Assembly: GCA_003693705.1 (NCBI GenBank)
Contig: RBZT01000673.1
Span: 126,876 to 190,875 of the forward strand
DNA from: Polymyxa betae
Taxonomy: Eukaryota > Endomyxa > Phytomyxea > Plasmodiophorida > Plasmodiophoridae
DNA: 64,000 bases
Direction: 5' to 3'
Positions 24,219-63,955 of this stretch are shown piece after piece. The position numbers and the translations under genes were made by a program. Each line of letters opens with the position of its first letter. Within the stretch, counting starts at the first letter, position 1. Under the pieces are notes generated by a model. It had not been told where the DNA came from. It searched no databases and saw nothing but the letters and a program-made list of their open reading frames with translations.

Positions 24219-25599
24219 TTATAGAACAGGACCAAGATATAATGTATCTAGCAGAGGACGAAGAGCATGCTCCTTGACATCCCTAAACCCAACTAACATC
24301 AGGTAATATTGATATTAGTAATCAGTGAACTTACTTATTAGGAACAGTAACAGTTCCCATTCGTGTCAGAGTCTTTGGATCCACTTCCACATTATCAATT
24401 GTTAATAAACCATGATTTAGCAACATCAACCGAATCATGGTTTCATCTGGCGTTTCTTTCTGCCTACTGGCCCAGGTCGAGGCTAAAGAACGTGATTGCA
24501 ACGGTATTGTGCCTCGAAACACATTATCGAGATTGCAATCGGCTAATGCGTCTGAAAGCCAGATTAAGGGTCCAATTGCAGTTGACCAATGTGGACCAAA
24601 TTGTTGAGTTGCCATCAAAACATTGATTGCATATGGATTATGGAGACGATTGCCTTCACGCTGAGCGTCAGCACCCCAGCTATACCCACCATACCATTCA
24701 GATAACTTATTGTCAAGATCATCCACAGAGATCTTCAAGCGATGATGTAAGCCCATCAATGCATCATGAAAGTTCGAGTGAATCTCATCTGCTGTATATC
24801 CGCATAATCGTGAACCAATATCCTCATCAAATGTTAAGTCACTGATATGTCCAGGGATGATTAATGATGACATTGATGTGACTCCAGTATACATTTGGAA
24901 TCGAAGTTGGGATTCGAGATGTTCGATGGCCGAAGTGAAATCTCGTAATGTTCTCTGGTTGGTAGCTCGGATCTGTTGCTGCTGATCCAGAGGTAAATGA
25001 TGTAGGACGTCTGTAATCGGGGCATCAATTTCGTCGATGAGAACCACGACTTTTCCAGATCGTGATTTACGAGCCATGCCTGAGATTAGATCGCGCGTGG
25101 CGCTTTTCACAGAGCTTTGTGAGATCTGGCCGACATCGTGTTCTTCTGCCATTCTCGTCAATGTGTCGAGAAGAGTGTTGCGAAAGCCTTTTCGACGAGC
25201 AACGGTTTCCATGTTCAGATGAAAAACGGCATGAGTTTCAGCCCGCCAATCCCAACGACTATCGGCAATGGACAAACGTTGAAATCCTAAAGATCCATCG
25301 AAAAGGTGCCTCTCGCCACGAAATAACGATGCCAAGGTCGATATTGTGATACTTTTACCGAATTTTGGTGGACGACATAGCAAGAATTTCTGATCACTAG
25401 AAATCATACGTTCCATAGCTAGTGTCTTGTCAACATAAGCAAAACCGTGCTCGATTAACATATGAAACGTCGATGTCGATGCTGTGATACGTTTTCGTTC
25501 AGCAATTGGCGGCGGCTCTATTCGGATTATAGCATCGGTCGTTGATGATTGAACAAATCGGCGCCTGGAAGAAGCCAAAGTTACAGAAGCTCTGAACAT
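24219..25599 (-). CDS. AAA-ATPase_like (DUF1703-type) protein without a visible nuclease domain
   Basis: Two exons (25599-24335, 24282-24219) give 1329 nt, 442 residues. Residues about 45-330 match the AAA-ATPase_like family (PF09820 as I know it): YVDKTLAMERMI, the Walker A variant RPPKFGKSITISTL, a GERHLFDG segment, Walker B VVVLIDEIDAPI and the YGGYSWG motif. The C-terminus VTVPNKDVKEH resembles the PNxEV boundary that normally precedes a PD-(D/E)XK nuclease domain, but the gene stops about 15 residues later. These genes occur patchily in bacteria, chytrids and other microbial eukaryotes and are often multicopy. The function is unknown. A near N-terminal basic Ser-rich segment could target a mitochondrion. 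Confidence 0.8.
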
Positions 25600-26786
25600 C
25601 AGATGAAGAGTTCGCTTTCAGGTAAGCGATTGATATAAAAACAACCCTTAAAGGTTGAGTGGAAAGTCAGGTCGGAATTCTGCATTCACCGGTAATCATG
25701 TTCATCGGAGAGTAATAATACACAGTGTAATGTTACACATCTGGTATAGGACAATTGTGTAAACATATTGCAGAACACAGACTGAATACGACTCCAAATT
25801 GGAAGTTGATCTCGTTACTGGGCGGGTTTTTTCGAAGCTTAAAAGTGTCAATTACAGAATTTGGTTTTGCCCACGACTCTGGCCTGGGTTTTTCATTGAC
25901 TATCTATGCATGCTGCATCAATCGTTAGCCTCACATGTATAGATTGAGATCCAAGAGTTTTATCATTATTCGTGTCGGAATTGTATTGCTACAGCGGAAG
26001 GTTCCAACAAAGATGACAACATTTCTCGTATTCGGAAACTGTTTTTGAAAGATTCAGAAAGATGTATAGACTGAAACAGCTATAGAGAAGGCGACCATAA
26101 GTACTCGATTGAATGATTACAATCAACGAAATTGAATGGTAGTGGGTGACAGTTGCATGGACTCTTAAAGTTGCAAAGTAGATAAAGAGGGAAAATACGA
26201 TCGTTTGAGATAAAACGAATTCCGGCTACAAATAGTTATTGCTTGACAGTAAGTGATTCGGTGACAATGGATTGCCAAAGAGTATCGCGTATGCGTTAAT
26301 ATCATGATGTGTCCACTGACTTTATCGACAGATCAAAGTTTGCAATAGTGCAACTCCGCATATACAATTCAGAATTCGCACCTTTTTTGAGTATTTTGTG
26401 TATTATTTTCATTTATTTTGTGACTGGCGTATGTCAGATTTTCGAGTCAAAAAAAGAATGCGTAGACCCTTTGACAATTAGGGATCGGCCACGTTCGGGA
26501 TCGCCCAGACAAGTCGCGATTTAACTTCTAGGTCATCTGAGGTTATACTGATTACGATTAAGCCACATCTGACAGCATCATCGTCAACCCAGTTACAGGC
26601 CCTGAACGAGCATGATATGCCGAGAGTGGTAGAGGGTTCTGCTCAACCAGGGCCTGCAAGCCTCGGCCAGGCCTCGATCCTAAAAGCGCCGACCACACCG
26701 CGCGCTCATTCCAAACATGTCCGTTTTGATGTCGGTTTATGGCATGACCGTTGCGCTCCCGATTGCTGAATCATGCTCAGGTTCCA
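25600..26786. other. long AT-rich intergenic region
   Basis: About 1.2 kb without a supported gene. A 71-codon plus-strand frame (26309-26524, GTG start) ends RDRPRSGSPRQVAI, faintly like the GRPR-hook of Tc1/mariner transposases, but nothing else supports a transposon. Confidence 0.35.
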
Positions 26787-42933: not shown

Positions 42934-45384
42934 ATGTTCTATCCAAGGCTCTTGTTGTTATGTTCTGTATTCATCATAATCTTGGTATCATGGTCGCAAG
43001 CATTGTCGTGTCGTACCTGCTCGCAGCAGGCGACCGGACCCCAAACTGATGCCTTGATTGTTGCTCATTTCACAGATTGGAAGCATTATCTAATGGTGCC
43101 TCTTGGCGGATTGATATCGATTATCAATGGATCTCTTTATACACATCTGGTTATGGGTGTGTCTTCTGTATCAAATGGTCTCTGCATAATTGCTGATGGC
43201 TGGGCTTCCCTACAACTATCATTTACAAGCACATCATTGGGATCTGATGTCAATGACCCATACAAAGGGAACCTGAACCAAGCTCGACGTTTGAAACTCG
43301 CCTATCCACACTTGAAAACAATCCTGGAGGTGACCTCGTCTGGAGGTTTCAGTACAGCAGCTGCTGATTCGGCAAATCGAGCGAAGCTGGCCACATCGTG
43401 TGTTAGTTTGATGCAGCAATACAATCTTGATGGTATTCAGATCAATTGGGGTATGTAACTACCATTAACATCTTTGTTATGCTCTTAATAGTATATTATA
43501 GCCAATCCTGGAACATCAGATTATAACAATTTTGCACTGTTGGTTGCATCATTTCGATCTGCGATTCAGACCTCAACGTATCCAAATGCGACATTATCAA
43601 TATCAGCAAACTTCGATCCTGCAAGATGGAAGTCTGAGTACAATATCGCGGCCATGGCTCCGTATTTGGACTGGATAAATGTCAGATCGTTTTGGTATTG
43701 GGGTGGATCTAATTCTATAGTTGGTCATACAGCCAATCTATTCCCAGCTGGTCCATCATCACCACATTCTCGTTCTGTTGCTCAGGATCTGCAATCTGTC
43801 CTCGACCTACCAATGTCTTCGTGTAAATTACTTATGGGAATTCCGTCATTCGGATCAGTATGGAAGCTTCCATCGGCGCCGGCGTCTCTGACATTGCCCA
43901 GCTTTTATGCTGTTGGCGCAAGCACTGGCTTAGAAGGCGGTGCTGAATTCTCAAGTTATCTAGACTTTGATGTTCAAAGGTTATTATCGAATGGGACATG
44001 GACGACCATTTGGGATTCAACAGCTCAAGCTTCTGTTTATTACAACCCATCATTACTCAATTTCATCACATACGATTCTGCAGAGTCACTGAATGCAAAG
44101 ATGCAATGGGTACTGGACAATAACCTGGCAGGAGTTTCAATTGAAGACGTAACTGGTGATCTCAGATATAACAGGATCTCATCAACAGCTGTTAAGAAGT
44201 TCGAGTCATCTCGACCCTATCCCAAATCAAGAAGCTCAACGAAGAAGTTTCTAATCACCAGCTCACAACAGCTATTTAGTGTATCCAAACAGGGCCCTAT
44301 CTCGACATCATCCAGATCACAAAGCCAAACATCAACAACAAATTCACCGTCTTCAACGATTTCGTCCATTCAGAAGACGGCAAAAACGTCGTCATCATCC
44401 CAGAGCAGTTCAATGAACATATTGTCGAGCCATTCAAGTTCAGCCAGTTCTGGATCGTCTAAATCAATGCCAAGTCCTGTTGTAGCAACACCCTCTATCG
44501 TGGGATTTTCTGCAATCGCCCTCAGGTCTACAAGCACGCGATTGGCGCCGGTCTCCCCCTCGCAGAGCTCAGGCAGCAGATCACGTTCCAGATTTCCTAC
44601 GATGTAAGTGTATTGGTTACGAGGTCGTGTAGAATATCAATCTCTCAACAGAACTGATACCTCTATTGGCACCTCATTCAACGCTTGGATGGTCTCCTTG
44701 GCCATTCTTTGTGATACTCGACAGTACACCGATGATAGACGTCAATTGGAAGATGCCTATTTACGTAGTGCCCTTTCGAAGTCGCTGAATGTCGACCAGA
44801 CTCAATTCGTAAATGCACAGCTTGTTTCAAGTACTCAGGCGACAACGTCAGTCTCGTTTTTGGTGCTGCCGAGATCGTCATTGGGCGTTCCTGAAGGCGA
44901 TGAAATCTCTGCACTGTTCACATCACAGATGCAAGAAACGTCGAGCTTCTTGAGGCAGAATTCTATTCTTGGTTTTGCGTTGTCACCGCCGACTCCAATA
45001 TCAGTATCGCAGGTGTCTGTTCGTCGTTGCGGTCAAGATTCCTACATAATAATTAGATCTAACAGCGACAAATGCCCTACAAACACGCTCGCAACACAAT
45101 CAACAAGTTCAAAAGTCACAATCATTGGTGTCGCTGGTGGAATTGCTTTCTTAGGGGTCTTGGGCGTAGGCCTTTGGCTATATCGAAAACCAAGGTTGAT
45201 GGGCCTCGAACAGCCTGCCAACGTTGTATATTTCAACGGAATGACCCAAGAAGATCCTGATGGCCATCCGTTGTCGCTCAAAGATGGTGCTGTTATTCTG
45301 GGACCTTTCACGACCAGCTCTTATGGTAGTAGTGACCAGGCATTCACGAGCTACAGCATAGTTCAAAGGACGAATACTTTGTAA
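42934..45384 (+). CDS. single-pass receptor with catalytically dead GH18 ectodomain (paralogue 1)
   Basis: Three exons (42934-43450, 43502-44603, 44652-45384) sum to 2352 nt, 783 residues. A signal peptide (LLLLCSVFIIILVSW) is followed by a Cys pair (SCRTC) and a GH18 chitinase-like barrel: HLKTILEVTSSGGF, the pseudo-active site LDGIQINWANPG, WINVRSFWYWGG, LLMGIPSFG, YDSAESLNAKMQWV and NNLAGVSIEDV. GH18 enzymes need DGxDxDxE; here it is DGIQINWA, with the catalytic Glu replaced by Ala and both flanking Asp changed. A roughly 130-residue Ser/Thr-rich stalk, a compact membrane-proximal domain, a transmembrane helix (IIGVAGGIAFLGVLGVGLWL) and a 60-residue cytosolic tail follow. It is probably a cell-surface chitin or glycan-binding receptor or adhesin. 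The ligand is inferred. Confidence 0.85.
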
Positions 45385-46247: not shown

Positions 46248-48581
46248 ATGAAAGCCGCTCTTCTATTCCTAACTCTTCTATTCCACCAAGCCCAATCGTT
46301 ATCATGTCGAACTTGTGCCCGGGACACAACTGGACCTAGAACTGATGCGTTGATCATCGGTCAATATATTGATTGGAAATACTATACATTAGAGAGCTAT
46401 GGAGCTGTCATATCTAATATTAATGCGTCTATATATACGCATATAGTGATGACTGTATCATCAGTATCTAATAAGTCATGTATCATATCAGATAGATGGA
46501 TCTCATTACAGAACTCCTTTACTAGTACAACATTAGGCTCAGATACCAATGATCCATATAAAGGTATCCTGAATCAAGTTCGGAAATTGAAGCTGCTCTA
46601 TCCACATCTGAAAGTGGTTCTGGGGATGACTGATGCCCCTCCATCCACCAAGCTATCTGTAGTCGCAGCCGATTCCACTTTCCGAACTCAACTCGCCCAA
46701 TCCTGTGTTAATATGATGCTGCAGTATGGTCTGGATGGCATTCAGATCGATTGGGGTCAGTTTCTATGATCGTTTTGACTGATACCATTATCATCTAAGT
46801 ACTTATTTCATAGCTAAGCCAAATCCAACCGGTTCGACTCTAGCCGATCCTAATAATTATATTCTATTAGCGGCCGCTTTTCGTTCAGCGATAGCCAGCT
46901 CGACCAAACCGACGGCAACACTGTCTATTAGTGCAATATTCGATCCTTGGACAATGAACCAACATTTCAATTTGACAGGAATAGCTCCATATTTAGACTG
47001 GATTAATGTTAGACCATTTTGGTATTGGGGCGGTTCAGATTCTGTCATTGGTCATACTGCTAACTTAGCTTCACCTGGCTCATCATCACCACATTCTCGT
47101 TATGGAGCACAAGATATACAGACCGTTATCAGTAAATCTGTACCATCATGCAAGATAATCATGGCTATACCAGCCTTTGGATTTGCATGGCAGCTGCCAT
47201 CAGCACCATCATCGCTGTCACTTGCGAATTTCTACAAAGTTGGGACATCTACAGCGATATTTGACGGCTCCGAGAATGGACGGTACATTGATGTTGATAT
47301 CCTGCCTCTGACAAAGGCGGGATCAAACGTCACGACTGTTTGGGACTCTACAGCTCAAGCCTCGGTTTATTACCAGGCTTCATCCCGTTTACTGTTTACT
47401 TATGAGTCGACACAATCTGTTAATGCCAAGATGCAATATGTTGTCGATAATAATCTCGCTGGAATCCTTGTCGATGATATGGGATGTGACATGAATTGGA
47501 ATCTGATCGCAACAGCTGCTTTCAATAAGTTTCGGTCACTACGACCTTGCGTAGCAACCAGCAAAAATCTGACTACCAGAAGATCATCTCTGGGTGTGTC
47601 AAGCAATACGAGAATTAATTCGGCGTCGTACCAATGGAGGTATCCGTCAATGGTAATAACAGTCGTTGATTTTTCTCTGCATTGATTGAAGCCTTGTTTG
47701 CAGCCGATCACTAATCCGTCGACCTATGCAAGCTCAGCGTCAGCAGATTCGTATGTATACTGTAATAGCCATGTCTAATTTGGTCTTCTGAGGTTTCATG
47801 TAGATCGGCGAATGGAACACAAATTGACATGCCATTCTGGGCAGCCATGGTATCACTGCCCTTGCAACGAAGTCTGACAAAATATTCATCGGATAGGAAG
47901 CACACTGAGCTTCAATTCTTCATTGCTGATGCATCCAACGCTCTGTCAATCGATTCTAATCAGATTGTTGATTGTGTGTTGATGGCGAATGGACCGTCTG
48001 CAAGCATATTATCATTTACATTGCTGCCTGGCTCACACACAGCTCTGGATACAGCAAATGAATTCTTCAATCAGATGCAAGATTCTAGTAGCAGGCTACG
48101 CCAAGGAGCGTTGCTACAATTTGCCCCAGAGCCTCCCTTTGTCATCTCAATCACCTCTGTTCGAGTACGTCGTTGTTCCGGCAACATGATTATATCAGCG
48201 AGCTCTCAATGTTCCGATTTGAGTTCTGAGAATAACCAATCACACTTCTTTATGATGCAAACCACGTCGATAATCGCATCAGTATGTGGCTTGATGTTAG
48301 TATTAGCTTTGCTGCTGTGGATTTGTGTTTATAAGAAAAAGAGTCATCTACGTAATGTTAAAGGGCAACACCAGCAAGAGACTCCAGTTGGAAAAGAAGT
48401 TGCTGTTGGGCCGACAGCAGTTCCAGAGCCTGTACAAAATCTGGTATCGTTCTTCCATCAAGGACCTCTTGATAGCCCTACACCTATGCTAGATGTAGCT
48501 AGTTATTACTCGTCAGATGACGCATGGCATCAGCAACAACAGCAACAGCAACGACACTATCGACCTGGTCAAACATTATAA
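46248..48581 (+). CDS. single-pass receptor with catalytically dead GH18 ectodomain (paralogue 2)
   Basis: Four exons (46248-46755, 46814-47652, 47704-47750, 47804-48581) sum to 2172 nt, 723 residues. It is collinear with the gene at 42934: signal peptide, SCRTC, TGPRTDALIIGQYIDW, pseudo-active site LDGIQIDWAKPNP, DWINVRPFWYWGGSDS, VWDSTAQASVYY, NNLAGILVDD. The Ser-rich stalk is shorter, with its own 47-nt exon. The membrane-proximal domain, a transmembrane helix (SIIASVCGLMLVLALLLWI) and a Gln-rich cytosolic tail (QQQQQQQ near the end) complete it. The catalytic Glu is Ala, as in paralogue 1. The cytosolic tails of the two paralogues are not alike, suggesting different partners. Confidence 0.85.
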
Positions 48582-53755: not shown

Positions 53756-56700
53756 ATGAATTTTAGCCCTATCTTCTACATTGTTGTCGTTCTTTGCATT
53801 GACAAATGTAAAGCTTATTTACCATGCCAGTCATGCACAGTGTCAGGGCCAAAGACGTCTTCGCGTTTAATTGGTTACTACTATAGAACCAAGGTCGATG
53901 CTCTTCCAATTGAGTCGATCGATGCTGGATCGTTGACGCACCTGGTTTGGAATGGATTCACCGTCGCGAATGGCCGTTGCGAGATTTCTAATCTGAATAC
54001 TGATTTACAACAAACGTATGGCTCGAATTCGCTGGGTATTGATGTTGATGCCGCATATCATGGTCAACTATATCAGCTTCGCTTACTAAAGCTCAAATAT
54101 CCTCACTTAAGCTTGCTCGTCACGATCCCTGGAATTTTTCAGACTACCGGTGTTTCCAGTCTAAATACAAGAGCCTCCTTGGTATCCTCATGTGCTGCTT
54201 TGGCTCGGCAGTACCTTTTCGATGGCGTCGAATTCGATTGGGGTAAGCCAGAATTGAGGCCTCGCCATCACTGATTGTATACCCAGTCATCACCACCGAC
54301 GGCGATAAGTTCGAGTTTGCTCAACTGTTGTCGGCCTTCAAGCAAGCAAACGCAAACCTGACTGTCGTCTCTCAGATCAGGGGCCCTTTAGCGACTATGT
54401 ATTCACGTTATGATTTCACTACCATCTCTGCCAGTGTCGACTGGGTCCATTTCTCTGCATTTAATTTATGGGAGTCAAGTCTAAGACCAGGTTAGTGGAG
54501 TCCAGTCGGTGATGTTACCCCGCATTAAATAACCAATTGTAGGTCATCACTCGCCTCTCTACTGGTCTCCTTACTCTCCAGTATACGACTCGGTTGACTC
54601 CTGGGTCCGGTATTTGCTAAAGAATGGAGTTCCACCTTGTAAGATTGTGCTGGGACTATCGTTGTCGGGGCCCGCCTGGTCGTTGACGGATTCGGTTTCA
54701 CCGACCAGCCCAGATGCCATCTTGGCGATATTCAATCAAAGCAGGGCCATGGTTTACAGTGGCAGGTTTGCCGGCGGTTACCGGCTCCGTTTTAGAGACG
54801 TTAGCCATTCCTTCAGCTTGGTTTTTGATGCCGCTTGTCAGACCTCAGGCTACCTGAGTTCTCAAACGTTTGCATCTGTGGAGGGGATTCAAGCCATGCA
54901 AATTAAGGCCAGATATGCATCGCATCAGAATTTGGGCGGCATCTATTTGCATGATCTCAGTGCTGATATCCCTTCAAACGGAATTGTTCAGGCGGTTCGG
55001 TCAGCGCTTGTTCCGCTGACGCCATGCAAGAATTTGATCGCAAACACTCAATCATTGTCAACGCCTACGAATTCAGTTAAAAGCTCTACTGCCACGATTA
55101 ATACCAAAGTTGTCACTTATCTTACTATGAACAATATCGATCATGTTGAGGGAAATCAGTTCACTCATGCTATTTACGACCAGTTGAATTGGACCAGTAT
55201 CTCGATGGATACGCGATCGTCCATGATCGATCTTAACCTTCGCCGCATTGCTACGTTCAGAAAAAAATACCCCCAAGTCTGTTTATTGCTACAAGTTGGC
55301 AACAACATCGAGTTTTCCAAAGTCGTTGGGAATAATGCAACGAGGATGGCTCTTGTATCAGCCATTATCGCCAACGTCAACTATTTTGAATTCAATGGCG
55401 TATCTGTAAACTGGGGTATGAAGTGCAAATGCTGCTTAAGGATTATTAACGGGGTTTGTAGATGATACGTCCGGACAGATTAGCAACAAGTTTCACCTTG
55501 CTACGTTTATGTCTCAGCTGCAGTTGCGGCTGAGCTCAGATTCTGCTTTAACAATGGAACTGAAATTCCGGACAGAATCGTTCGATGTCCGTTATAACTT
55601 GACTCTCGTCGATTCTTTCGTCGATTGGTATCATGTACGACCTTTTGATTTCGGGTTTGTTGGATAGAGATTCTTGTGATCAAGTCTGAATCCGATTTAG
55701 ATTGCAGGTAGCAGTTCCGTTCACATTCTCTTCGTGGTATTTGCCTGACACTGGCGCTAATTTCTTTGACAAAGTTTTGGTGCTATCGGCTTTAAACAGG
55801 ATACTAATTGAACCCATTTTACCATCCAAAATTGTTTTGGTCCTGCCAATGTTCGGGCTTCAGCTAATTTCCACGTACATGGACACATGGATGTATCTCG
55901 CTTGGTATTATCCAGCCATACTACAATCGTCCGTAATTCCTAGTGCAAACGTCATCAAGGCAGCAAATACGGCCGGTTGGGTCCAGTTAGCTGATCCAGT
56001 CCCTAATGTTACTTTGCTTTATCAACAATCTTTGGCACAAATGATTCTCTACGATGGCATTGGAAACATCATCACCAAAGTCGATCAGGCCAAGACTTGG
56101 GGTTTAGCGGGAGTTGGGTTTTATGACGTGTCGACTAATGATGCTCGAGTAGCAACTGCAATAGCAAGGTTACCAAAAAACGACATAACCCCCATATCAT
56201 CATCACCTCGACCTGTTCTGACGTCCGCAACATCTGTTCAACCGAGCTTTTCGTCTCAAGACTCGTTAATGCCCCTTGGCGTCTGTAATCAAATTTCTAT
56301 CAGCAAATTAGTGCAATGGAATATCGCGGATTTTCCGATCATGCTCCAATCAGTTATCCCAGACCCAAGTGTTCTACTTACATCTGGTTGGACTTCACCG
56401 AAACTTGATCTCTCGTCTGCTTCTTTCGTATTAAACTCTCCCGCTGACCTTGATCTGGTTTTATCATCACGATCGCTAAAGGAAAACTATGCTGGTCAAC
56501 GACTATTCTTCTTTCTAAACCTTTCGTGCTCTGATCCTAACCATTCCAGACCTACTAATGTTATCATTCCAACGTCGTTGGCAATTCCGCCTCGCACACC
56601 AACCCCTGAAGGTTTGACAATCACACCAAATACTGGCGAAGCGCTTCTCACTGTTTTCAATCTTGAAGTAAGTGGCGATTATCATCAATCGGCATGCGCG

Positions 56701-58966
56701 CGATACTTTGTTTATCTCGGCAACGCTCAGGTCCCACTTGGTGATGGGAACTGCATTCCGACATTTTTCTCTCTCAAAACCGTGTTACCAGCTTCAGATA
56801 ATAGTTCGGTTGTTATAGTCGCTGTCGAAGTTGTTGATAATGGCGTTGTTTCGGAAGGACTGGCGAATGTCACTGTTCAGATTTCAGCTCCGGAAATTTC
56901 TTTAAATTACATCGAAGACATATTTACACCCAACTCTAGAATACCTTTTTGCGATCACGTTTTGTCCACAGTATCCATAATCAGCCGTCTTTCAGTCAAC
57001 ACAACAACGGTACGAGCAAGAATAATGGAGATGATAAAAACGCAGTATCTTGAAGCACCTGCATGCCCACCGGCTAGTTATCAAGATCTTGCTTTTATAA
57101 CTGTCACATCAGAGCTCTTGAAGGTAATCATGTTTGTCATCTGCTTCAGCTCGACTTATTAATCTGTAGGATCCGACTGATCTCAATAATGGTATCGCCC
57201 AGGATGCATTAGATGTGATCAACAAGGCGATGAATAAGACTGATGTCATGCAGCATCGTCTTTTGCGGGAAAGAATTGCTATTTTATTATCGTCCTTGTT
57301 GTTATCTAAAGCGTCAAGTGGGACTTTATCTTACATGCAGTCGATTCGAAACATTATCGATCGCTTGGCAGTGAGCGGTCTCAGTAATTTAGCGGGTGGG
57401 GAACGCGATTCGTGTCGTCGCTCAATTAGCACCGATGCTTTCAATATCCAAACATACAAGCTACATGCACTTGGTCTAAATTCTGCTCCTTCGTGCTCTG
57501 TTACGCTGCCTCTGGATTTAGTTACCCGATATCGAGGCAGAACAGTTGGTGTAGTCTCAACAATTTATCAGCTTGTTTCGGGGTTACCGTCTACGACCAA
57601 TCTCGTCCATTCTGTTAATGTATATATCGATAACAGTGGACCGGCTACCATTCAGAATGCAAGCTCGCCATTTAAAATCAATATGGGATTAATGCCGTCG
57701 TCTGGCGTTCGTTTGGAGTGTGGCTGGATTCTGCCCAATGGGCGCGATATATCGAAGACAGGATGTGAAACCCAAATCGCTGAAAATCGTATCGTTACAT
57801 GTAACTGCTATCATCTAACCGATTTCGTTTTGATAATCACTGAAAGTGAGAGTATTACTTTCGTTAGCTCCAATACCAAAGATGTGCAATCCTGGGCGTT
57901 TTCACTGGCGAATCTATTTAATCTCGCTCTTTCGGTTGTTTCTTTATTTTTAGGATGTTTCGGAAAGTACGTCATAACAAATGCCGAATCATATAAGACT
58001 TTCTCGATTATGGCAATCCTTATTGTGGTAAAGTGTGTCGCTCGAGCTGCATTCTATGGTACGATACTGTTTGGAGGTATCAGACCCAATGGCGACCTCT
58101 TTCTTGCTAGATTGATGTTTGGCACAATCACCCAATTCTCACAATTTATGATTTTCGGTTATCTGCTATGCCTCCTCATTATCATTCTATCATCTATCGT
58201 AACAATGAACGAGAAACCCCTGGCGCTTCGTAATTTCCTCTTCTTATTTCAGTCTGTCATCAAGGTTCTTATTGTAACATCGCTTGGGGTTCCTGCATTA
58301 CTGATTTACGGGTCGGTTCGTTTTGACAGCCAAGGAATGTTTTTTGCCGCATCTGCTTACATTCTTATATTAAATATACTACTGACTTTATCTATTCCTG
58401 CCACCGGAATCATCATCGCGCGATATCTGGTAAATCATTCACACAAGAGAGTTATTTCAAACAACTTTGCTATTAAGAGGTCTGGTATTCAGTCACTTTG
58501 TCGAATGGAAGCATTAAACGAAAAAATTAGGTATTTAAAACTGGCGAAGTTTATGCGAATAATTACAATTGCGATGGGCATCTGTTTATCATTACAGGCA
58601 GGACTCTGGACATGGTCAATTGTTGGTTTAGAATCATATAATAAGAACACTAACGGCAGTCTGGCCTTCGTTGTTTTGGATACGGTTGCTACTTGTCTTG
58701 TTCTGACCTATCAATGTAATGTGGCCTGGACACAATACTGCAAAAAGAAACGAGAAGAGTCTCTTATCGAGAAGAACGTCGCTGCTCACTTCCGTGATGA
58801 CGCCGTTCGTGTTGTCAACGAGCAGTTCGTATACGTGGAATCAAAGCGAATCAAGGAACCCTCTGTTTGGGACAATGTCTTTGATGAGTTTGCTAATGGA
58901 CTTGGTTCTAAACATATGTCGTTCGATAATGATTATTCAAGCGATGATGGCAGTAGGCCTTGGTGA
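53756..58966 (+). CDS. GH18-like tandem ectodomain fused to GPS stalk and seven-transmembrane domain (adhesion-GPCR architecture)
   Basis: Six exons (53756-54242, 54287-54490, 54543-55415, 55462-55654, 55701-57123, 57170-58966) sum to 4977 nt, 1658 residues. A signal peptide (IFYIVVVLCIDKCKA) precedes two chitinase-like GH18 modules with pseudo-active sites FDGVEFDWVITTDG and FNGVSVNWDDTSG; the catalytic Glu is Val and Asp. A beta-rich stalk of some 600 residues leads to a GPS motif: CGWILPNG, GCE, then CNCYHLTDFVLI, where cleavage in adhesion receptors falls between L and T (about 1276/1277). Seven hydrophobic helices follow (about 1300-1580), for example NLFNLALSVVSLFLGCF, FSQFMIFGYLLCLLIIIL and LAFVVLDTVATCLVLTY, then a 78-residue tail ending in acidic residues. 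It is likely a surface receptor that senses chitin or a related glycan; ligand and G protein are unknown. Confidence 0.87.
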
Positions 58967-62442: not shown

Positions 62443-63021
62443 TGTGAGATACAGTTAAGAGATATATCAATACAGTTATGAACATGTCCGCTTCAATCGA
62501 TTATATTCGAGAATCTCCAGAATCGATATAGATGGCCAATATCAATCTGTTTCAAATCTAATGATGGTATTGTTTCTTTATTCATAGTGAGTGGTATCTC
62601 AACACAAATTTGGAATTTTGAGTAGAGCTGCCTGGACATTCTATACAGTGCGCTGCCTCTGCATGACTGAAATTATATCTCGCGAGTAATCGCATTCTCA
62701 ATTCTGAAAGGCTTTCTGAGGTCATCTTACAATATTTGGCAGAAAAATCATGATCCTCTCATGACTCGCAATTCGTACGTCAATCTTGAATGACATTGGG
62801 CTATTTGCTGATGCTTGCAAATATCGAGAGTTTCGAAATAAGGTTGCAGCGGTACCGAAACTGGGCGGTCGGTGCCTGCATCTGGTGATGACAATAGTTT
62901 CAGGCGATGCGACGGCAAGATTCAGCTTCAACGGAAATTAAGGGAATCCGATAAATCATCATTACATAAGGGATGCTGTTGGCCATTTATGGATCCATCA
63001 TTCTATAATCGCTTGGATACA
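62443..63021. other. intergenic, divergent promoters
   Basis: Between 6-phosphogluconolactonase (-) and the expansin-like gene (+). A frame open from 62872 runs into the expansin gene in phase; it could be an N-terminal extension but would bury the signal peptide, so it is treated as leader. Confidence 0.35.
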
Positions 63022-63955
63022 ATGACCACATTCAACTTGGTGTTAGTTGCTGTCGTGTGTGTGTTGTTAAGCGGGCATACATCTGCTCAGTCAGGCTCGG
63101 GAGGATGTACTATGCATATGTACTTATCACAGGGTTTGATTTTTTTAGTTGAACATGTCATAATTGCTAATAAACTTATTGCAGATAAAGTCAATGGAGC
63201 ATGTGGTGAATATTATGCACAAGTTCCTTCGTCAGTAAACGGAGGCTTTATTACAGCCTGGCGAGATCTGCCTGGTGATAACAAAGCTGGCTGCGGTGTC
63301 TGCATTCAAGTAACTTCAACCAAGACTTCCAAGTCCACCCATGTGTTGGTCGTAGATCGTGGTGGTGCTATGGGTCTAGATCTTAGTCAAAACGCCATTG
63401 AAGCTATCGACCCCGGATGGGCAGCGGCTGGAAATACTCCATGCAAGGTTAGGCCTGTCAGAGACTGGACGTTTGGGTTAGTGACGTCAATTTTAGTGGG
63501 AAGTCGTCGCCAGCAGCAACTGCCAAGGAGCGTCCAACAATCCTTCCGCAGGCAGCCAATCTCCATCGTCGGGTGGCAGCCAACCAGGCCAGAATCCATC
63601 ATCTGGTGGTTCACAGCAAGGACAAGGCGGCCCAAGCCAAGGCGGATCACCTTCAACGCCAGCGCAACAGCAGTCTGGTGGTTCTAATGGTTCACCCCAA
63701 GGACAGCAGCAATCCTCATCTCCAGAGAACCCATCATCTAACGGTCAAGCCCCAAGGTCTGGCGGTCCCGGAGGAATGGTCGGGCCACAAAGTGGAGGAA
63801 TGGGAGGGTCTCAAGGCAGCATGGGAGGATCTCAAGGTGGAAGAGGAAACTCTCATGCAGGTATGGGTGGACCTCAAGGAGGAATGGGAGGAGGAATGAT
63901 GGGCGGACCTCAAGGAGGAATGGGAGGATCGATGGGTGGACCTCCAGTTCAATAA
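63022..63955 (+). CDS. secreted expansin-like (double-psi beta-barrel) protein with low-complexity tail
   Basis: Three exons (63022-63133, 63185-63447, 63497-63955) sum to 834 nt, 277 residues. A signal peptide (FNLVLVAVVCVLLSGHTSA) precedes a single DPBB domain: NGACGEYYAQV, AGCGVCIQV, HVLVVDRGGAMGLDLSQNA, and a final CKWEVV strand. The catalytic-type Asp of the HxD/VxD site is seen in VVDRGG. The last 140 residues are Gly/Ser/Gln/Pro/Met rich with repeats of GGMGG and GGPQGG. Expansins loosen plant or algal cell walls, and fungal relatives bind cellulose or chitin; no C-terminal carbohydrate domain is visible here. Confidence 0.8.

Follow-up and report, generated by a model that had tools for sequence, protein, structure and literature searches.

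Receptors that couple an extracellular GAIN domain to seven transmembrane helices (7TM) are described as adhesion G-protein-coupled receptors (GPCRs) of animals and their near relatives, and this fusion has been placed in stem holozoans, with extra ectodomains added later (PMC12716839, 2025). The study reports no extra ectodomains for ichthyosporean, corallochytrean or non-holozoan adhesion GPCRs (PMC12716839). Polycystin-1-like proteins are described as the only known GAIN family besides the adhesion GPCRs (PMC11697300). Polycystin-1 has itself come to be seen as an atypical adhesion GPCR in which GAIN and a tethered agonist matter for signalling (PMC13197933, PMC11458180), and it binds and regulates G proteins (PMC9672506). 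Adhesion-type GPCRs were apparently absent from 1357 fungal species surveyed at a domain cut-off of p < 1e-5 (PMC12842992), fungal adhesion-type receptors without N-terminal domains had previously been reported (PMC3251606), and no GAIN was found in the family 2 receptors of amoebozoans (PMC10445921). Here we describe a six-exon gene in a 64 kb stretch of eukaryotic DNA (the window, positions 126876-190875 of contig C206), which belongs to a genome of 24.43 Mb in 541 contigs that was searched as a whole. The predicted product is, on balance, probably a receptor of the cell surface, with two dead chitinase modules joined to a seven-helix domain by a polycystin-kind REJ-like/GAIN stalk.

Architecture of the predicted receptor

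The gene is modelled on the forward strand with exons at 53756-54242, 54287-54490, 54543-55415, 55462-55634, 55708-57123 and 57170-58966, which sum to 4950 nt, or 1649 codons plus a stop, in a single frame. All five introns (44, 52, 46, 73 and 46 nt) have GT-AG boundaries, with splice sites inferred from sequence. The six exons very probably form one gene unit. In every exon, codon scoring ranks the chosen frame first of the six (30/30 alternatives lower), as measured against a small training set of five window open reading frames (ORFs) with Pfam matches (1817 codons). The interval 55690-57162, which spans exon 5, is a single open frame, and exon 5 alone carries the end of the second GH18 module together with the REJ-like domain. 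The encoded order is signal peptide, two GH18 modules, stalk, GPS, seven hydrophobic segments and tail (Table 1).

Ahead of the helices stands a GPS motif of canonical form, CxW...C...CNCYHL/TDF, where the slash marks the predicted cleavage point; CGWILPNGRDISKTGCETQIAENRIVTCNCYHL precedes the cut and TDF follows it. A GPS-type pattern, based on the usual form of the motif and written after the sequence had been seen, matches CGWILPNGRDISKTGCETQIAENRIVTCNCYHLT and nothing else when all six frames of the window are scanned, and it is absent from each of 20,000 shuffled versions of the protein. Pfam GPS reaches 23.2 bits in the genome search, above its cut-off of 22.5, and only two GPS matches are listed there, one in this gene and the other in a protein encoded on contig C462. 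The two GPS sequences align at 31% over 51 (E 1e-6, z 10.3). A TxF-hydrophobic pattern is a feature of the tethered agonist of adhesion GPCRs. The TDFVLII segment that directly follows the predicted cleavage point fits this pattern by eye, making it a candidate agonist.

The stalk resembles the same C462 protein. Residues 882-977 align with its REJ domain at 33% over 104 columns (E 0.003, as a single comparison). Encoded on the minus strand, the C462 protein carries REJ in one exon (80.2 bits), EGF and GPS in the next, and more hydrophobic segments after the GPS; PLAT was not matched in the three pieces scanned, and by this reading the protein may be called polycystin-like. No other relative of the stalk turned up, and this one lies in the same genome. 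When residues 871-1290 were used as query against the REJ-bearing C462 exon, the score (z 6.8) was not equalled in any of 1000 shuffles, and the alignment spans residues 874-1182, thus running past the boundary between exons 5 and 6. Most of the C462 signal comes from the REJ and GPS parts, and the 7TM region, used as a control against the C462 exon, gives none (932/1000 shuffles as high). Together with the position before the GPS, the likeness to C462, which is weak over the GAIN part, suggests a putative GAIN domain in a stalk of the polycystin kind. Adhesion-GPCR stalks were compared through the PDB search only, where the best match for the exon 6 piece before the first transmembrane segment (TM1) is ADGRG3 (7qu8), at an E of only 1.1. 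N-glycosylation sequons were set aside as evidence: 14 of the 16 precede the GPS, against about 12 expected from length alone.

In the ectodomain, Pfam matches GH18 in two stretches of the spliced protein (E 1.6e-48), and residues 1-737 match PDB chitinases (best E 6.1e-19; 74 distinct sequences at E<=1e-5), including several inactive chitinase-like proteins of the CHI3L1/YKL-40 and Ym1 types. Module 2 is weaker and more diverged; its genome-level GH18 match lies at 55109-55417, and the exon 5 piece that completes it matches PDB chitinase 3g6l at E 0.0019 and Pfam at only 0.049. In the alignment, the DxxDxDxE motif of active GH18 enzymes, with its catalytic Glu, is absent from both modules, the Glu being replaced by Val in module 1 and by Asp in module 2, and further active-site positions appear altered too. 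Both modules seem to be enzymatically dead. That the pair senses chitin is a guess.

The first-pass annotation of this DNA had anticipated much of this architecture. It proposed an exon sum divisible by three, a signal peptide followed by two GH18-like modules, a GPS, seven hydrophobic segments and a tail, and the spliced model agrees on each count. It had also named a stop or promoter between 55700 and 57200 as evidence of two genes, and the open frame shows no stop or break there. The pseudo-chitinase nature of the GH18 pair is supported by the Pfam score and the lost Glu of both modules, and the GPS ending in CNCYHLT before the helices by the unique pattern match and the likeness to the C462 GPS.

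Table 1. Positions of the gene's features and of related neighbours in the window
Feature	Position	Strand	Basis
Whole gene, 6 exons, 1649 aa	53756..58966	+	Splice reconstruction, frame intact, codon test
Signal peptide region, residues 1-23	53756..53824	+	Hydrophobic segment 6-24
GH18 module 1, DGVEFDWV at DxxDxDxE site	53864..54967	+	Pfam, alignment
GH18 module 2 (approximate ends; exons 3-5), NGVSVNWD at DxxDxDxE site	55094..56175	+	Genome match, PDB, alignment
REJ-like stalk domain, residues 874-977	56590..56901	+	Likeness to C462 REJ domain
Putative GAIN domain, residues about 980-1267, intron 5 (57124-57169) inside	56908..57817	+	Position before GPS, weak C462 alignment
GPS motif, predicted cleavage L1267/T1268 (HL/T)	57719..57820	+	Motif pattern, Pfam, C462 likeness
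Candidate tethered agonist and linker, TDFVLIITESESITFVSSNTKD	57818..57883	+	Position after GPS, TxF-hydrophobic pattern
Seven hydrophobic helices, residues 1290-1569	57884..58723	+	Hydropathy, loop charges
Predicted intracellular tail, 80 aa	58724..58963	+	Manual helix assignment
Neighbour g1, dead chitinase, DGIQINWA, one TM by reading	42934..45384	+	Pfam, gene model, shared intron
Neighbour g2, dead chitinase, DGIQIDWA, one TM by reading	46248..48581	+	Pfam, ORFs, shared intron
Intron positions at lost-Glu codon	43451, 46756, 54243, 55416	+	Alignment of four GH18 modules

The seven-helix region and a possible mechanism

Hydropathy resolves seven segment groups after the GPS, between residues 1290 and 1569. 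The count of seven relies on starting at the GPS, because the signal peptide and four stretches of the ectodomain pass the same scan, some of them matching TM6 and TM7 in strength. When the helices are assigned by hand, intracellular loop 3 (ICL3) has 40 residues with 9 Lys or Arg, and extracellular loop 2 (ECL2) has only 7 residues. Class B receptors are expected to carry cysteines for a disulfide between TM3 and ECL2; by the same assignment, there is no Cys in ECL1, at the top of TM3 or in ECL2. The polycystin-1/PKD1-like layout of PLAT after TM1 and 11 TM segments is not seen either, the region having seven segments, a short first loop and no PLAT match.

Profile searches of this region were silent. 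In the whole protein, hmmscan finds no 7tm_2 at E<=1, and none is found in the genome, searched in six frames exon by exon; this last blank says little because the profile was also silent in 14 of 14 control genomes. As a query against the genome, the 7TM region retrieves only itself, with no paralogue and no match to the membrane part of the C462 protein. A resemblance to the THH1/TOM1 (TOM1/GPR137) family, suspected by eye, was set aside; the TOM1 profile, run with an E limit of 10, is blank across the genome. AlphaFold, run without homologues, gave a predicted local distance difference test (pLDDT) of 41.5 for exon 6 and 46.7 for the 7TM region, and the models are unusable as a fold. They show seven long helices and one in the tail; for the two models Foldseek listed 46 and 14 matches with E<=10 and none with E<=0.001, a result given no weight. 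Seven hydrophobic segments after the GPS, as first annotated, are upheld by hydropathy. The further claim of an "adhesion-GPCR body" is unproven: 7tm_2 is unmatched, the class-B extracellular cysteines are missing under the manual assignment, and the one relative found for the stalk is polycystin-like.

Adhesion GPCRs and polycystin-1 serve as the analogy from which we infer a scheme of cleavage, ligand binding and G-protein coupling. The protein would cleave itself at HL/T in the secretory pathway, and the two fragments would stay associated. The GH18 pair might bind an extended ligand, possibly chitin-like and not hydrolysed, on a wall or an exuvia, or on a cell of a prey, host or partner. 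Pulling or displacement of the ectodomain would then expose the TDFVLII segment, which may turn on the seven-helix domain and, through it, a heterotrimeric G protein.

Neighbouring chitinase-like genes and the host cell

Two more chitinase-like genes, g1 and g2, lie upstream of the receptor gene on the same strand, and each closes, by reading, with a single hydrophobic stretch followed by a short tail; the 3' exons of g2 are incomplete in the model. The N-terminus of the receptor reads as similar to those of both neighbours (LSCRTC / LPCQSC). The catalytic Glu is missing from all four GH18 modules of the window, and in all four a phase-1 intron, placed by inferred splice sites, cuts exactly the lost-Glu codon. 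Six more contigs gave GH18 matches; at the two of these loci that were compared, on C345 and C1, an intact DGVDIDWE stands, and there the inferred intron falls upstream by a few bases. Identity is 57% between g1 and g2, 31% between g2 and module 1 and 29% between g1 and module 1; module 2 shares 21% with module 1, 21% with g1 and 17% with g2. The phase-1 intron shared by the four modules at the lost-Glu codon suggests duplication, and the simplest account of their history is that a local dead chitinase was duplicated. By this route g1 is probably related by duplication, and the placement of module 2 is less sure because it has strongly diverged. One idea is that activity was lost through a shift of the intron boundary.

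The linker of g1 is Ser-rich, and the membrane-proximal stretch reads as alike in g1 and g2; this piece has no Pfam match in g1 and only weak Pfam matches, below cut-off, in g2. Elsewhere in the genome, on C345, some 10 kb separate a G-alpha gene and the intact chitinase (C345:552-1697 and C345:12097-12965). The other genes of the window include one for a PF09820 AAA-ATPase-like protein (24334-25617, minus strand) and one for a Barwin/cerato-platanin-like protein (62842-63684, plus strand).

The genome offers some indication of what kind of cell would carry the receptor. An IFT46 gene (E 1.1e-81) fits the flagellated cell that the first-pass annotation had assumed. All 17 listed Zn2Cys6 matches exceed their cut-off, as do 8 of 11 chitin-synthase-type matches, a profile that also matched in 4 of 14 control prokaryotes, and Chitin_synth_1N has one partial match. 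IFT46, Zn2Cys6 and the chitin-synthase-type matches together suggest a zoosporic holomycotan, none of them being exclusive, and the host is likely a zoosporic fungus or a close relative. G-alpha has 29 matches in all, and 8 places, grouped manually, exceed the family cut-off. Ten of the Zn2Cys6 matches cluster over about 15 kb at C244:207653-222151, 8 of them paired within one open frame.

Alternatives and comparison with known systems

Several results weigh against a polycystin-kind receptor with a seven-helix signalling domain. Pfam GPS falls short of its cut-off in the whole protein (17.7 bits), in exon 6 (19.3) and in the isolated piece (20.6), and Pfam REJ has no match in the window protein in full-protein or piece scans. 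Compared with C462, GAIN-A alone is weak (15/1000 shuffles as high); its share from exon 5 does not reach significance (160/1000), that from exon 6 is marginal (27/1000), and the first part of GAIN-B gives no alignment (850/1000). The hydrophobic scan also passes ectodomain residues 118-136, 607-639, 937-965 and 1087-1105, and the codon score of the whole coding sequence (0.054) is lower than those of the training ORFs (0.172-0.322). The 7TM piece matches no Pfam family at E<=10, 7tm_2 and 7tm_3 included, a level at which HMMER filters still remove most weak matches, and nothing in NCBIfam or among PDB chains. G-protein coupling is without direct support because the 7TM region matches no GPCR family and its structure is unpredicted. 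Conservation of the architecture is likewise unsupported because no homologue was found: a set of 5.8 billion proteins returned none for residues 1052-1649, for exon 6 alone or for residues 30-1290. These blanks are weak evidence of absence because scoring in each search was confined to the 8000 or 7999 candidates with the most words in common, and residues 30-1290 did not retrieve even a chitinase. Viral and GTDB contigs, collections not meant for eukaryotes, yielded no relative.

The silence of GPCR profiles and of PDB, the missing TM3/ECL2 cysteines and the polycystin-like stalk would all be expected if the seven helices were not a GPCR at all, instead forming a divergent anchor derived from a transporter, TOM1/GPR137 or polycystin in a cleavable adhesin or channel partner. 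We consider this unlikely. The seven segments, the basic ICL3 and the GPS and TxF segment placed just before TM1 argue weakly for a receptor, and the blank TOM1 profile and the failure of the 7TM query to match the C462 membrane part are weak points in the same direction. An ordinary holozoan-type adhesion GPCR, its 7TM diverged past recognition in a unicellular holozoan, would account for the GAIN/7TM fusion, which is typical of holozoans (PMC12716839), but Zn2Cys6, Chitin_synth_1N, chitin-synthase-type and IFT46 matches, though none is exclusive, fit a zoosporic fungus or relative better, and such an origin appears improbable; the genome's lack of a 7tm_2 match adds little, its control being silent. 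It is very improbable that two genes, one for a secreted protein with both GH18 modules and one for a GAIN-7TM receptor, were wrongly joined. The gene model, intron 5 included, rests on the sequence, and the GAIN stretches beside this intron align weakly on their own, but exon 5 holds the end of module 2, the REJ-like domain and the following part in one frame, and the best overall C462 alignment crosses intron 5 to residue 1182.

Our preferred reading, a polycystin-kind stalk joining two dead chitinases to a seven-helix domain, invites a more tentative one. The protein might be a GAIN receptor of a third kind, arisen outside Holozoa and separately from the class-B line. On this view a zoosporic holomycotan would have attached a polycystin-type REJ-GAIN stalk to a seven-helix receptor that is unrelated or unrecognisable, and topped it with tandem dead chitinases, duplicated from the single-pass ones nearby, as a wall sensor. 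If a holomycotan GAIN-7TM receptor with folded ectodomains is real, the fusion either dates earlier or arose twice, in conflict with surveys that confine GAIN-7TM to holozoans and find none in fungi. At E 0.0052 for Pfam GPS in the whole protein, the survey of 1357 fungal species would have missed this receptor at its cut-off of p < 1e-5. The receptor would also be a molecular candidate for zoospore surface recognition. In one chytrid, zoospores show chemotaxis toward N-acetylglucosamine, in a report whose main text uses neither "receptor" nor "GPCR" (PMC12115818). The leading open-access literature results report no chitinase/GH18-GPS-7TM protein.

Adhesion GPCRs (class B2; animals, choanoflagellates and filastereans) share with this protein a long ectodomain, a GPS (HL/T), a TxF-type segment before TM1 and seven helices. 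They differ in that the 7TM region here is not recognisable as 7tm_2 and lacks the class-B extracellular cysteines, the ectodomain is of GH18 type and the host is probably not a holozoan. CHI3L1/YKL-40 and Ym1 have the GH18 fold with the catalytic Glu lost, as here, and are soluble and not known to be fused to a receptor, whereas the dead GH18 modules of this protein are joined to a predicted one. Polycystin-1 and PKD1-like proteins also have a REJ-like domain followed by GPS, yet polycystin-1 has 11 transmembrane segments (PMC9672506) where this protein has seven hydrophobic ones, and here no PLAT or channel domain was matched and GH18 modules stand in front. The gut-fungal receptors carry a class C 7TM with pectin-lyase-fold or solute-binding-protein ectodomains, and nothing of class B is seen in them (PMC5168858). 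Being seven-helix receptors of zoosporic fungi whose ectodomains resemble enzymes or sugar binders (PMC5168858), they are the nearest parallel found to the architecture described here.

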